This document shows, piece after piece, positions 1 to 57,908 of a stretch of DNA of 61,012 nt. Source of the stretch: Oscillospiraceae bacterium. GTDB lineage: Bacteria; Bacillota; Clostridia; Oscillospirales; Oscillospiraceae. The notes under the pieces were generated by a model, which did no database searches, was not told where the DNA came from, and worked only from the letters and a program-made list of their open reading frames with translations. The translations under genes were made by a program, and so were the position numbers. The DNA is taken from assembly GCA_022800525.1 (NCBI GenBank), contig JAAWQM010000011.1:1-61012 (forward strand), read 5' to 3'. How positions within the stretch are numbered: position 1 is the first letter of the stretch; every line of letters begins with the position of its first letter.

Positions 1-68
1 CGTTCGACTTGCATGTGTTAAGCACGCCGCCAGCGTTCGTCCTGAGCCAGGATCAAACTCTCAATAAA
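1..68 (-). rRNA. rrs: 16S ribosomal RNA, 5' end only
   Basis: The reverse complement contains the universal 5' 16S segment (AGAGTTTGATCCTGGCTCAG followed by GACGAACGCTGGCGGCGTGC). Only the first 60-70 nucleotides are in the window; the rest lies beyond position 1. The exact mature 5' end is approximate. The gene is transcribed leftwards, away from oriC at about 15 kb, so it is co-directional with replication on the left arm. Confidence 0.97.
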
Positions 69-3823: not shown

Positions 3824-4117
3824 TTTTCAAGGTTCGCTCTGCACCACCTTTTGTATAGCCCGGTGTGCGGCCCGGTACCTGGGCCGGGGTTCGACTTGCT
3901 TCAGTGCCTATAAACTTGGAGGTTTGTCTTCCCTCAATCTGGAAGTGAAAAAAGCGGGATAGTTGCCGTATAGTGGGCAACCGTTCAGAAAATATTACTG
4001 GGGATGGCTTCTGGCTATATGGGTGCAACCGTTTTGAGCGCAGTTTTGGACAGAAGAGGGCGATTATATATGGACGGATGGTATTCGCCCCCATAAAGAT
4101 GTATCGTACAGAAGTAT

Positions 4118-4405
4118 CCAGCGCCGCTAGCGCGTCACTGCCCAGATGGCTCTGACCCTTTAACAGGGCGTCAGCCGGAGTTGGAATATTACCAGACCCC
4201 CAGATCAGATGCCCGAAGGACCTTTTGTTCACGGGGCGCCGCAGCTCTTCGCTTGCAGGCGTGTCCGAAAATCCCCCGCCGAGGTCATGCCGCAGGCATC
4301 ACCGAGAAGGGAGTCCAGAACCGTAGGTTCTGGGGTACTTTTGCCTGCTTTTCCTACAAGGGAAAAGCAGGCCCGGGGTCCGGGGCGGGCAGCGCCCGGG
4401 CCATC
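4118..4405 (-). repeat. Dispersed structured repeat, copy A
   Basis: This non-coding block matches, in reverse orientation, copies at 12748-13110 and 57131-57490. Shared parts include a perfect hairpin CCAGAACC-tac-GGTTCTGG (4315-4333), a GATGCC...GGCAT hairpin, a GGCT...AGCC hairpin around an AAAG loop, and the end sequence GTGACGCGCTAGCGG. A 12-bp stem at 4343-4354/4361-4372 replaces the stem of the other copies with different but still paired bases. Short open frames cross it but lack ribosome sites. The whole gene-free interval 3824-4471 holds this repeat plus unrecognised sequence. Confidence 0.8.
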
Positions 4406-4471
4406 GATCAGAAAACATGCCTCCCGCCCCTGGAAGGGGCGGCGCGGCATTGATAAAGAAAGGAAGATACC

Positions 4472-12598: not shown

Positions 12599-12651
12599 GT
12601 TCTCCGCCTCCTTTCGTTCGCCCCCAAAAGGGGGCATGTTGTTTCTACTTT

Positions 12652-12680
12652 ATTTTACACGAAAAGTCAGGTTTCGTAAA
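12652..12680 (-). promoter_or_regulatory. Putative promoter of the dnaD-dnaC pair
   Basis: On the minus strand CGTAAA reads as TTTACG (12675-12680), followed by a 17-nt spacer and TAAAAT (12652-12657). The -35 is weak; the -10 is acceptable. It lies between the gene and repeat copy B. Confidence 0.45.
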
Positions 12681-12747
12681 GGGGGAGTTTTTATATTCCT
12701 TTCGGCTGCTGCCGCCCCCGGCGGCAGGGGGAACGGTTTCTGCTCAA

Positions 12748-13110
12748 TGGCCCGGGCTTGCGCAGCCCGGACCTGCGGTTACTTTTGTCTTGTGGCAAAA
12801 GTAACCAAAAACACACCAGAACCTACGGTTCTGGACTCCCTTCTCGGTGATGCCTCCGGCATGACCTCGGCGGGGGATTTTCAGACACGCCTGCAAATGA
12901 AGAGCTGCGGCGCCCCGTGAACAAGAGGTCCTTCGGGCATCTGATCTGGGGGTCTGGTAATATTCCAACTCCGGCTGACGCCCTGTTAAAGGGTCAGAGC
13001 CATCTGGGCAGTGACGTGCTAGCGGCGCTGCCGGGCCGGCCGTTGGGCCGCAGGCACAATGACGGCCCAGCGGGGCGTTCTGTCGCGGGATGATTCTGTA
13101 GGATGCATCT
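12748..13110 (+). repeat. Dispersed structured repeat, copy B
   Basis: This about 360-bp stretch closely matches 57131-57490 in the same orientation and the core of 4118-4405 in reverse. It opens with a CCGGGCT/AGCCCGG hairpin, then an 11-bp stem GGTTACTTTTG / CAAAAGTAACC (12777-12787/12796-12806), then the invariant CCAGAACC-tac-GGTTCTGG hairpin, and further stems. Downstream to 13500 is more GC-rich palindromic sequence, including a partial extra hairpin copy at 13441-13480. No gene is supported between 12638 and 13611. Confidence 0.82.
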
Positions 13111-13440
13111 GGCGTAGGGCGCACATTGTGCGCCCGCAAGGCAACGCCGCTGGCCCAATGACAGCTCACGGTCAGAACCGTACGAATGACGATGGCATTA
13201 CCCAACACCGCCGTAGGGCGCGCCGTCCGCATTCCAAGGGACTGATTTGCAGCCACGGCGATGGCGCGCAGCTCATATAGAAGCGGCGCTGCAGCGACCC
13301 GCCACCGTCAGAACCTGTGGGTAGCCGCAGAAGTCCGGCGCGCTAACGCAGGCATCAGGTCAGAACGAACCAAGGTATCGTCGGAGGGCAAACAAAACCA
13401 TACATTTAGGGGTTTCTCAAGGGGGCGGCCCCCCTTGAGG

Positions 13441-13480
13441 GCACTTTTGTTACTTTTCCTGCAAGGGAAAAGTAAGCCTC
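13441..13480 (-). repeat. Partial repeat copy D (hairpin module only)
   Basis: The hairpin TTACTTTTCC-tgcaag-GGAAAAGTAA (13450-13459/13466-13475), preceded by GCACTTTTG, matches the corresponding module of copy A (GTACTTTTG then CCTGCTTTTCC...GGAAAAGCAGG) in the same orientation. The rest of the long repeat is absent; a CTCAAGGGGG/CCCCCTTGAG palindrome lies just before it. Confidence 0.6.
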
Positions 13481-13534
13481 CGTCCCCGCCCGCGCGGGCG
13501 GACAAAAATCAATCTTTATATTAGAATAAGTATA

Positions 13535-13563
13535 TTGCAATTTCACCCATTGTTTGGTATAAT
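13535..13563 (+). promoter_or_regulatory. dnaA promoter
   Basis: TTGCAA (13535-13540), a 17-nt spacer and a perfect TATAAT (13558-13563) lie 48 nt before the dnaA ATG. No DnaA box is evident right here, so autoregulation would have to act from the oriC side. Confidence 0.8.
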
Positions 13564-13611
13564 AAACTCATTCATTTTTGACCGGGAAAAAGAAAAAAGG
13601 AGAGCTTCTCT

Positions 13612-14925
13612 ATGCAGTCTGTTTCGGATATATGGGATATGATCCTGGCCCGATTACGGGAGGATCTGTCAGAAACCACTATCAAAACCTGGTTCGATGA
13701 GACAACCGTCGTCGCCCTGGAGGGCAACGAACTCATCCTCCATTGCCCCAACAACTTCAAACGCTCCAACATCCAGGACCGGTTTCTGCCTAATATCGAA
13801 GCCGGCCTCAAGGACATCTTCTCCTCCGATATCGCCGTGCGCCTGCTGGACGACGAACAGCTCCAACGCCTCCAGGACCAGGAAAACCAAAAACCATCCT
13901 CCATGATGGACAGCGGAGAATTCACCTTCGACACCTTTGTAGTGGGCCCCTCCAACCAGTTGGCCTGCTCCGCTGCCCAGGCGGTGGCCGATGCCCCCGG
14001 ACGCCGCTACAACCCCCTCTTCATCTACGGCAGCTCCGGCCTGGGCAAAACGCACCTCCTTTACGCAATCGCTCACGAAATCCGCAAAAACACCCCCTCC
14101 GCCCGCATCCTCTATATCAAGGGCGACGACTTCATCAACGACTTTATCGAAGCCGTCCGAAGCGGACGGCCCATGAACGATTTCCGCGTCAAATACCGGG
14201 AGGCCGACCTCATGCTGGTGGACGACATCCAATTCGTCGCCGGTAAAGTTGAGACGCAAAACGAGTTTTTCCACACCTTCAACACCTTATATGAAAGCAA
14301 AAAGCAAATCGTACTGACCTCCGACCGGCCTCCACAGGAAATGGCCCTGCTGGACGACCGCCTTCGCACCCGCTTTGAATGGGGACTGATGGCTGACGTA
14401 CAGCAGCCCGTTTTTGAAACCCGTGTGGCTATCGTCAAAAACAAAGCAGCCAATCTTGGATTGATCCTCTCAGACTCCATCGCCGGATATATCGCCGGGA
14501 AGATCACCTCCAACGTCCGGCAGCTGGAGGGAACTGTCCACAAAATCAAAGCCTTCCACGACCTGAACCAGGAAATCAATCAGGACACCGTAGACCGGGC
14601 TATCCAGGACATGATCCGCTCCAACGAATTTATCATCACTCCGGACAACATCATCAAAGAGGTCTGCCGCTATTTCCGCATTGAGGAGGACCAGATCCGC
14701 GGGCCGTCCCGCAGCCGGGACATCCTCAACGCCCGCCAGATTGCCATGTACCTCATCCGCCGCATGACCAACCTGTCCCTGGACGACACCGGCAAGCTCT
14801 TCGGAGGACGAGACCACTCCACTACTCTCAACGGCGTAACCAAAGTCGAAAACAAAATGAAAAATGACAACAACTACGCCGAAACCGTCAAAGCCATCAT
14901 GACCAACATCAACTCCTCAAAGTAA
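13612..14925 (+). CDS. dnaA: Chromosomal replication initiator protein DnaA
   Basis: A 437-residue AAA+ initiator that binds DnaA boxes and opens oriC. The N-terminal helicase-interacting domain covers residues 1-80. A short linker follows, then the ATPase domain with Walker A GSSGLGKTH (140-148) and Walker B LMLVDDIQF (200-208), and the C-terminal DNA-binding domain with the DnaA signature GGRDHSTTLNGV (398-409). Length and order are standard. A GGAGAG site precedes the ATG. The sense strand is noticeably C-rich, unlike gyrB/gyrA downstream, which agrees with the strand switch at the origin. Confidence 0.99.
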   Translation: MQSVSDIWDMILARLREDLSETTIKTWFDETTVVALEGNELILHCPNNFKRSNIQDRFLPNIEAGLKDIFSSDIAVRLLDDEQLQRLQDQENQKPSSMMDSGEFTFDTFVVGPSNQLACSAAQAVADAPGRRYNPLFIYGSSGLGKTHLLYAIAHEIRKNTPSARILYIKGDDFINDFIEAVRSGRPMNDFRVKYREADLMLVDDIQFVAGKVETQNEFFHTFNTLYESKKQIVLTSDRPPQEMALLDDRLRTRFEWGLMADVQQPVFETRVAIVKNKAANLGLILSDSIAGYIAGKITSNVRQLEGTVHKIKAFHDLNQEINQDTVDRAIQDMIRSNEFIITPDNIIKEVCRYFRIEEDQIRGPSRSRDILNARQIAMYLIRRMTNLSLDDTGKLFGGRDHSTTLNGVTKVENKMKNDNNYAETVKAIMTNINSSK

Positions 14926-54584: not shown

Positions 54585-54622
54585 ATAAAAAAGAAGAGCG
54601 CAACAAAACCACCTTGTTACGC
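54585..54622 (-). terminator. Expression-platform terminator of the glycine riboswitch
   Basis: On the minus strand GCGTAACAA / TTGTTGCGC around GGTGGTT is followed by TCTTCTTTTTT. It lies just after the second aptamer, so glycine binding presumably prevents its formation. Confidence 0.7.
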
Positions 54623-54797
54623 CTCTGTCGTTTCACCTGAGAGATTCCACACGGCCAAACAGCCGCAGTTGCCCCGCCGGCGCGTCTGAGCCATGCAGCC
54701 CGGCGCTTTCCAGATTTCGTCCCGATCCAGTCCTTTTGCCTGAGAGAGTATGGCGATGCTCCTTCGGCGCCGCGCAGGGGCGGTCTCTCCTGGATCG
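54622..54797 (-). promoter_or_regulatory. Tandem glycine riboswitch
   Basis: Two aptamer cores are visible on the minus strand. The first has GGAGAGACC, GCCGAAGGAGCA and CTCTCAGGCAAAAGGAC; the second has CTGGAAAGCGCCGG, GGGGCAACTG and ATCTCTCAGGTGAAACGACAG. This is the standard two-aptamer glycine class, here controlling the gcvT-SHMT/gcvH/gcvPA/gcvPB operon. Confidence 0.93.
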
Positions 54798-54838
54798 TTC
54801 ATCCGCATATGGAGTTGTCACGTTTCCTTACCCTCTTA

Positions 54839-57074: not shown

Positions 57075-57130
57075 GATGGATCCTTTCTTCGCGCCGTCCC
57101 GGCGCGAGGGTTAATTGGTTCTATTTGTTA

Positions 57131-57490
57131 CCCCGGGCTTGCGCAGCCCGGACCTGCGGTTACTTTTTGCTTGTGCAAAAAGTAACCAAAAACACACCAG
57201 AACCTACGGTTCTGGACTCCCTTCTCGGTGATGCCTGCGGCATGACCTCGGCGAGGGATTTTTGGACACGCCTGCAAGTGAAGAGCTGCGGCGCCCCGTG
57301 AACAAGAGGTCCTTCGGGCATCTGATCTAGTGGTCTGGCAATTGACCAACTCCGGCTGACGCCCTGTTAAAGGGTCAGAGCCATCTAGGCAGTGACGCGC
57401 TAGCGGCACTGCCGGGCCGGCCGTTGGGCCGCAGGCACAATGACGGCCCGGCGGGGCGTTCTGCCGCGGGATGCTTTCTGTACGATGCAT
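57131..57490 (+). repeat. Dispersed structured repeat, copy C
   Basis: Nearly the same as 12748-13110 in the same orientation. The second hairpin is a 13-bp stem GGTTACTTTTTGC/GCAAAAAGTAACC (57158-57170/57175-57187): one extra pair versus copy B, with both sides lengthened. From 57490 to 57700 follow GTAGGGGCGG- and GCGGGCGCAC-type palindromes. No protein gene is supported from 57075 to 57988. Confidence 0.82.
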
Positions 57491-57908
57491 CTGCGTAGGG
57501 GCGGATATCATCCACCCGCGCACCGAAGGACTGCTTCGCGCCTGCTGTACTGCGCATCTGCCCTTCGCTTTGCGGGCGCACACTGTGCGCCCCTGCACAG
57601 GCCAATCGCTGCTCAATATTTTTCAATACAAGACAAGACCCTATAGGTCCTGCCCTTGCGCTAATTCAGGGAAAGCCTCTTGCAATCCAATAATTATGTA
57701 GTAAAATAAATGTGCGAGATGGCAGAAGCAGGGCGTGGAGGACCCCTCTCCCCCACGCCCCTATGCAGGAGATCACGCCTCCCACACAGCAGATATAACT
57801 GCGCCACGCCCATTATAACCGTTTTCCTGAAATTTAGCAAGGGGAGAATGGGCCTTGTGTTGCAGCTTCGGCGGTGCGGGAATAATTCTGCGCCGCTTTT
57901 GTTGTCTC

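Follow-up and report, generated by a model that had tools for sequence, protein, structure and literature searches.

A two-ended intergenic repeat of Oscillospiraceae with putatively pseudoknotted ends, possibly a MITE-like mobile element

A hairpin-rich element in three intergenic regions

The window, meaning the whole stretch of 61,012 nucleotides that we analyzed, is contig C17 of a 2.87-Mb draft genome of an Oscillospiraceae bacterium (G000). It opens with the end of a 16S rRNA gene (model positions 1-68, at window positions 1-68 on the minus strand) that is cut by the contig end, and it carries a tandem glycine riboswitch at 54615-54802 on the minus strand, the second copy of which is weaker. 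Three copies of a hairpin-rich repeat were present where the original prediction had placed them: copy A (4118-4405) on the minus strand, and copies B (12748-13110) and C (57131-57490) on the plus strand. Copy B occupies most of the intergenic region 12638-13611, which runs from a DnaD-domain gene to dnaA (13612-14925, plus strand), and because of these neighbors it lies in the likely oriC region. The predicted limits of the copies were too narrow. An outer hairpin, H0, lies outside all three ranges (12709-12727 in B, 57089-57107 in C, and 4424-4442 in A), and the limits of copy B also miss an inverted right end at 13416-13503. The part first described is the left part of a double-ended element, with the following features.

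Copy B
12709..13503, plus strand: whole element as far as recognized (left end, middle, inverted right end)
12709..12727, plus strand: outer hairpin H0
12752..12770, plus strand: hairpin H1
12777..12806, plus strand: hairpin H2, with a loop predicted to pair with the linker at about 12812-12815
12807..12815, plus strand: A-tract and loop-complementary linker (AAAAA CACA)
12816..12834, plus strand: hairpin H3
12835..13415, plus strand: middle region, the first part of which is conserved mainly in primary sequence
13416..13503, minus strand: inverted right end, with an H3-like part (13416-13439), H2 and linker (13437-13477), and a GC-rich hairpin (13482-13503)

Copy C
57089..57107, plus strand: outer hairpin H0, 14 nt before the start codon of a DUF2461 gene (gene on the minus strand)
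57133..57490, plus strand: H1 (57133-57151), H2 (57158-57187), H3 (57197-57215), and middle

Copy A
4424..4442, minus strand: outer hairpin H0, 29 nt before the start codon of an Mrp/ApbC-like ATPase gene
4118..4399, minus strand: H1 (4380-4399), H2 (4343-4372), H3 (4315-4333), and middle
3829..3935, minus strand: probable alternative right-end module, recognized by eye

The alternative module of copy A recurs on contig C67 and, in the relative G003, at the corresponding site. We looked for a right end in copy C and recognized none.

The stem that first suggested selection on a fold reads GGTTACTTTTG in copy B and GCCTGCTTTTC in copy A, with exactly the pair changes that had been listed (G-C to C-G, T-A to C-G, and A-T to G-C), and both of its arms are lengthened in copy C, as had been noted. 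Another stem, CCAGAACC/GGTTCTGG, had been called invariant. This holds within the window, but in copies elsewhere it is replaced by CTTAAACC, CCGGAACC, or CCAGGACC with matching partners. The predicted fold of copy B had a z-score of -4.58 on the plus strand and -2.91 on the minus strand, and none of 100 shuffled sequences was as stable.

Protein coding was rejected as an explanation, given that five open reading frames over the window copies had no Pfam match even at an E value of 1; together with the covariation, this bears out the idea that folding rather than coding is what matters here. The element may in turn explain some of the spurious open reading frames in intergenic regions. A match to a known Rfam family had been named as a result that would refute the original prediction; no Rfam family scored above its gathering score anywhere in the window, and copy B at a lax threshold gave only three weak, subthreshold matches. 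The suggestion that the element is undescribed agrees with this result and with the lack of a description in the open-licence literature, which is weak evidence of newness.

Behind the middle of many copies, B and C among them, lie short palindromes of the GTAGGGGCG...CGCCC type (window positions about 13112-13138 and 57495-57590). They recall GTAG-tagged REP elements, as these appear in the available part of the source, and lie next to or inside the element (PMC3733652). A tiny frame, ATG AAG AG[C/T] TGC with TGA after seven codons, recurs in many middles, in the window near 12899.

A multicopy family with long inverted ends

With copy B as the query, at least 42 places in G000 matched, several of them cut off at contig ends; this number is a lower bound, with 40 of 101 candidates scored. 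Matches were found in 19 of 25 genomes of the same genus, G000 included, although some had just one to three, and among the relatives the closest and longest matches came from G007. For comparison of copies, we fetched 40 of the 42 loci from G000 (omitting two short 3' pieces), 20 of 30 from G007, and 20 from six other genomes of the genus. A search for terminal repeats, which had been proposed with the original prediction, found inverted ends in copy B and in G007, where the left module returns in the opposite orientation about 630 bp away. Of the 19 two-ended copies in G007, 17 measure 627-641 bp and the other two 654 and 1192 bp when their lengths are extrapolated from the model. Other subfamilies have inward-facing end pairs with hairpin starts about 370-420 bp apart, and elements with different middles have the same ends in common.

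Read inward, an end has the order H0-H1-H2-A-tract-linker-H3 and spans roughly 110-140 bp. The H1 anchor was present in 88 of 97 end modules, 16 of those 88 being without H0, and 4 of 61 middle regions lacked their anchor. A search across the whole family, which used a query of 311 bases and scored two candidates in each genome, returned matches in 6 of 300 genomes and 3 of 106 genera; it is too insensitive to give prevalence.

Near-perfect stems

A strand-neutral stem finder applied to the 97 end modules returned 327 hairpins with 3,034 stem cells, comprising 3,017 Watson-Crick, 4 GT, 10 AC, and 3 other cells; the resulting 17 non-Watson-Crick cells are a figure favorable to perfect stems, because the finder penalizes all mismatches. 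We also counted pairs at fixed columns of an alignment (A1) of 84 of 95 candidate ends, 11 having been omitted by eye for nested insertions or poor fit. There, 13 GT-type and 32 AC-type cells made up 45 of 2,348, a count that leaves out column pairs 57-62, 58-85, 62-81, and 26-44, which have no single register (57-62 would add 8 AC-type cells). As an RNA stem for comparison, P1 of 30 glycine riboswitches from the same genus, fetched from a longer list of matches, had 23 GT and 7 AC cells of 210. The scarcity of wobble pairs in the element favors folding at the DNA level or renewal by template switching. The stem of H2 is 98.0% paired, with two-sided changes in 7 of its 13 pairs. Unpaired stem substitutions across many copies, which had been named as the finding that would speak against a selected fold, are few.

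A single event of DNA template switching can restore a perfect stem, and the mechanism predicts reversed loops, according to the part of the source available (PMC8794818). By eye, some loops are indeed reversed (GTA for TAC in H3 and GGA for TCC in H0), and stem alleles reassort among copies and species. Because template switching renews perfect stems, covariation within stems is weaker evidence by itself than the original prediction took it to be. The repeats could then be ordinary palindromes that template switching and inter-copy recombination keep free of mismatches, their fold having no function. Their low mismatch count (17 of 3,034 cells, from a finder that itself favors perfect stems) fits such an origin, as do the reversed loops in H3 and H0 and the reassorting stem alleles. 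Against it stands a second kind of covariation, between bases that are not arms of one hairpin.

Predicted pairing between loops and the linkers that follow them

The best signal in the data, new here and missed by the original prediction, is the predicted pairing of the H2 loop with the linker between H2 and H3. This linker begins with AAAA[A/G] and continues with bases complementary to the H2 loop. Across the 84 aligned ends, column pair 61-82 is UA in 36, CG in 33, AU in 10, and GC in 4, with one gap and no misfit. Column pair 60-83 is GC in 82 and CG in 1, 59-84 is UA in 41 and CG in 32 with 10 misfits, and 58-85 is paired in only 27 of the 84 rows; all of these counts are of sequences and not of independent events. 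The covariation score between loop and linker was 0.515, compared with 0.171 after shuffling (reached by none of 500 shuffles) and with at most 0.236 when the columns were slid by one to three positions, a control that preserves relatedness. The number of further pair types between loop and linker showed no excess over shuffles (443 of 500 reached it). An unsupervised ranking of column pairs by mutual information recovered H2, the loop-linker pairing (61-82 fourth and 59-84 seventh), H3, and H1.

When each distinct loop/linker combination from all loci was counted once, at least four complementary bases were found in 112 of 139, against a mean of 35.2 and a maximum of 50 over 200 shuffles of the linker. 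Restricted to the 9 nt after the A-tract, the count was 71 of 98, against a mean of 17.9 and a maximum of 26 over 100 shuffles. Among the other 27 combinations, 24 had three complementary bases, and locus L146 and two others had none. The 98 include ends omitted from the alignment, among them L146, which has no loop-linker match, and L057, L161, and L166, with three bases each.

A second, weaker pseudoknot is possible between the H1 loop and the linker from H1 to H2, where columns 25-45 are CG in 81 ends and TA in 3, and columns 26-44 are paired in 65 of 84. With the H2 loop, and more weakly the H1 loop, complementary to the linker behind it, one or two pseudoknots may form in each end when it is single-stranded. 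A 13-bp stem is long for a 5-nt linker to cross, so an end may adopt the hairpin and the pseudoknot as alternatives. Loop and linker covary with all four Watson-Crick pair types, and we infer that template switching would not readily produce pairing of this sort. Together with its recurrence beyond the genus, described below, this makes a functionless set of palindromes improbable in our judgment.

The same end design in other genera and phyla

In two other genera of the family (genomes G103, G309, and G312), 7 of 8 distinct combinations had at least four complementary bases. When plasmids were searched with BLAST, the end turned up in Persicobacter, Aureibacter, and Parabacteroides (Bacteroidota) and in Ilyobacter (Fusobacteriota), and the three matches that lie in annotated records have no annotated feature beneath them. 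Aureibacter, Ilyobacter, and Parabacteroides have loop-linker complements of 6-7 bases. In Ilyobacter and Parabacteroides, two ends face inward at a spacing of 430 and 531 bp, respectively, and their loops are different yet each self-consistent. The Persicobacter copy has an imperfect stem and was not matched by the hairpin-linker scan. Among 13 viral contigs with the motif, 5 have a loop-linker complement of at least four bases and several others look like AT-rich chance matches; no long-loop variant of the H2 motif was found in viral contigs. Copy B itself had no match in phages or plasmids, so its spread by either was rejected. The element at L295 likewise had no plasmid match, and the end at L303 had no phage match.

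A loop-linker rule that recurs across phyla amounts to a precise, testable claim that the folded single strand matters, in repeats of a kind easily dismissed as palindromes. Its signature could be used to find the whole family and its enzyme, and the element offers a clear case for separating structural selection from template-switch repair.

Position before gene starts and the question of strand

Many ends lie close to genes. H0 was found 12-43 nt before a start codon preceded by a Shine-Dalgarno (SD) site at 33 of 70 ends, compared with 290 of 5,000 random positions in the same loci (counting open frames of 100 codons or more and setting aside two short-flanked ends). Under looser calling, 48 of 72 ends are at gene starts, 16 at gene 3' ends, and 8 elsewhere. 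The pentanucleotide flanking H0 on the outside resembles AGAAA at gene starts and is A-rich in the gene-end and other classes; since it is similar whatever the neighbor, it is probably part of the element. With many copies directly before ribosome-binding sites, the element may also affect gene expression in gut bacteria.

Such positions raise the possibility that the ends act as RNA. Transcribed outward, an end would form a structured 5' leader (a pseudoknot with a possible U-rich triple helix, H1, H0, and the SD site) that sets the stability or translation of the neighboring gene, and copies would persist because they are useful. The excess before SD-preceded starts (33 of 70) agrees with this, yet 16 of 72 ends face gene 3' ends. 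Intermediates of the G.U type are more numerous on the outward strand than on the inward strand, at 32 versus 13 cells and 17 versus 9 distinct cases, a bias that is not significant (P = 0.17); wobbles are also rare on either strand, at 45 of 2,348 cells compared with the 23 GT and 7 AC of 210 in the riboswitch stem. Outward-strand ends are the more stable (-55.1 versus -47.9 kcal/mol), with the inward strand more stable in only 1 of 84. Relative to dinucleotide shuffles, however, the end modules have equal mean z-scores on the two strands (-5.88 and -5.87), and we dropped fold energy as a means of choosing the strand for that reason. On balance, we consider a role as RNA leaders rather unlikely.

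A further pattern bears on both strands. The inner base of the purine arm of H2 predicts the fifth base of the linker: G goes with G in 24 of 24 combinations and A with A in 37 of 40, while C goes with A in 50 or G in 9 of 59. On the inward strand this is the rule of a class II intrastrand triplex; on the outward strand it would suit a U.A-U/C.G-C triplex just as well, so an outward RNA leader could use it too. The combinations are related by descent, and the pattern is therefore only a hint. In triple-helix pseudoknots such as that of telomerase RNA, a U/A-rich tract runs along the groove of an A-U stem, next to the pairing made by a loop. If the end is transcribed, its own U/A-rich tract could sit likewise.

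Among known DNA repeats, the nearest precedent that we found is the BoxC/TM_ECO intrastrand triplex repeats, as presented in the accessible part of the source (PMC4666352). BoxC, PIT, and TM_ECO repeats likewise have a hairpin followed by a purine tract as a possible third strand, are widespread, sometimes form inverted pairs, and have no assigned function in that text. The present element differs in its A/T core (theirs has a C-rich consensus), its putative third strand of 5 nt, and its loop-complementary linker, and it belongs to a larger two-ended element. Membership in BoxC/TM_ECO was rejected because the consensus of our alignment differs, by eye, from the one given there (PMC4666352). 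The element could nonetheless be a separate DNA triplex repeat of that kind, acting via replication stalling or genome instability. In its favor, H2 and the AAAA[A/G] behind it are arranged pyrimidine-purine-purine, as in the class II intrastrand triplexes laid out in the same partial source (PMC4666352), and the fifth base of the linker can be predicted from the purine arm as described above. We nevertheless hold this to be very improbable: the third strand of 5 nt falls under the 6-nt limit of the published finder and the BoxC consensus is a different sequence, insofar as the available text gives both (PMC4666352), and the triplex inference hangs on one variable position.

Filled and empty sites and a candidate mobile element

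At orthologous sites, with G000 included, the element matched in 2 of 24 genomes at site A, 2 of 21 at site B, and 4 of 18 at site C. G003 carries it at the same place between the DnaD-domain gene and dnaA (site B), and at site C the copy in G000 points the other way from those in G002, G005, and G007. Eight relatives without a match at site A were inspected by eye, and in seven of them the same upstream gene is separated from the next by some 30-90 nt that include a Shine-Dalgarno site; from this short-spacer arrangement, the element appears to split an operon in G000 and G003. Two genomes without the rest of the element at site C, G004 and G023 (L230 and L231), keep a GC-rich, H0-like hairpin immediately upstream of the Shine-Dalgarno site; H0 may therefore be a remnant or may have belonged to the target beforehand. 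As filled and empty sites come from different species, loss in the relatives is as possible as gain. No target-site duplication was recognized by eye, with relatives too diverged to fix the boundaries.

The interpretation that we favor, with moderate confidence and from sequence comparison, is a nonautonomous, MITE-like mobile element whose folded ends probably serve as its recognition signal. The original prediction had suggested something REP/MITE-like, and the MITE-like part of this is borne out by inverted ends, many copies, and filled and empty sites. Features by which MITEs are recognized are found here: terminal inverted repeats, presence/absence at orthologous sites (which does not give the direction of change), and many copies without a transposase gene (five window frames scanned; other copies mostly 627-641 bp). 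The proposed element would have a variable middle bounded by two long inverted ends, each of which, when single-stranded, could fold into one or two pseudoknots. An enzyme acting in trans would recognize the folded end as a signal and move the element. Selection on the fold, helped by template switching that renews perfect stems, would keep the pairing while letters drift. The outer end would land on purine-rich tracts such as Shine-Dalgarno sites, where insertion would do little harm. Copy number, inverted ends, and filled and empty sites are what point to movement; a need for the folded single strand does not by itself show that mobility is its function.

An enzyme for the element was not found in a Pfam scan of the five window frames or in a search of G000 and G007 for PF01797, and the elements leave little room for a transposase. 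PF01797 (Y1), the sole transposase family searched in these draft assemblies, was absent from G000 and G007 and present in 5 of 25 genomes of the genus. Without a resident Y1 (HUH) protein in G000 and G007, we rejected a Y1 transposase as the mobilizer, and with it membership in REP/RAYT or IS200/IS605. REP and BIME sequences are recognized as single-stranded hairpins. Like REP/BIME sequences with RAYT (Y1) transposases, the present repeats are dispersed intergenic palindromes, but by the available part of the source they are much longer, have inverted multi-hairpin ends, and lack a Y1 gene in G000 and G007 (PMC2817692). Bacterial MITEs, including pneumococcal BOX and RUP, offer the broader likeness of short, noncoding, multicopy, intergenic elements with inverted ends, a modular middle, and strong folding, as described in the excerpt seen (PMC3049150). 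Compared with what that excerpt covers, our element has multi-hairpin ends of roughly 110-140 bp with putative loop-linker pairing and occurs in several phyla, and we recognized no duplication or parent element for it.

More tentatively, the element may represent an unnamed class of mobile elements found across bacteria, with ends recognized as a folded, pseudoknotted, perhaps triple-helical single strand and not as double-stranded sequence. In Bacillota, Bacteroidota, and Fusobacteriota, the rule would have outlasted the letters themselves, and the enzyme would be new for such ends.

Some copies carry further palindromes. The site C copy of G007 (L229) has a different palindromic element of about 80-110 bp nested inside H1, and a similar palindrome lies at an end in G005 (L128). 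At L139 in G004, an inverted end pair about 1.1 kb apart has similar outer flanks and masked bases and is possibly a longer element or a larger palindrome.
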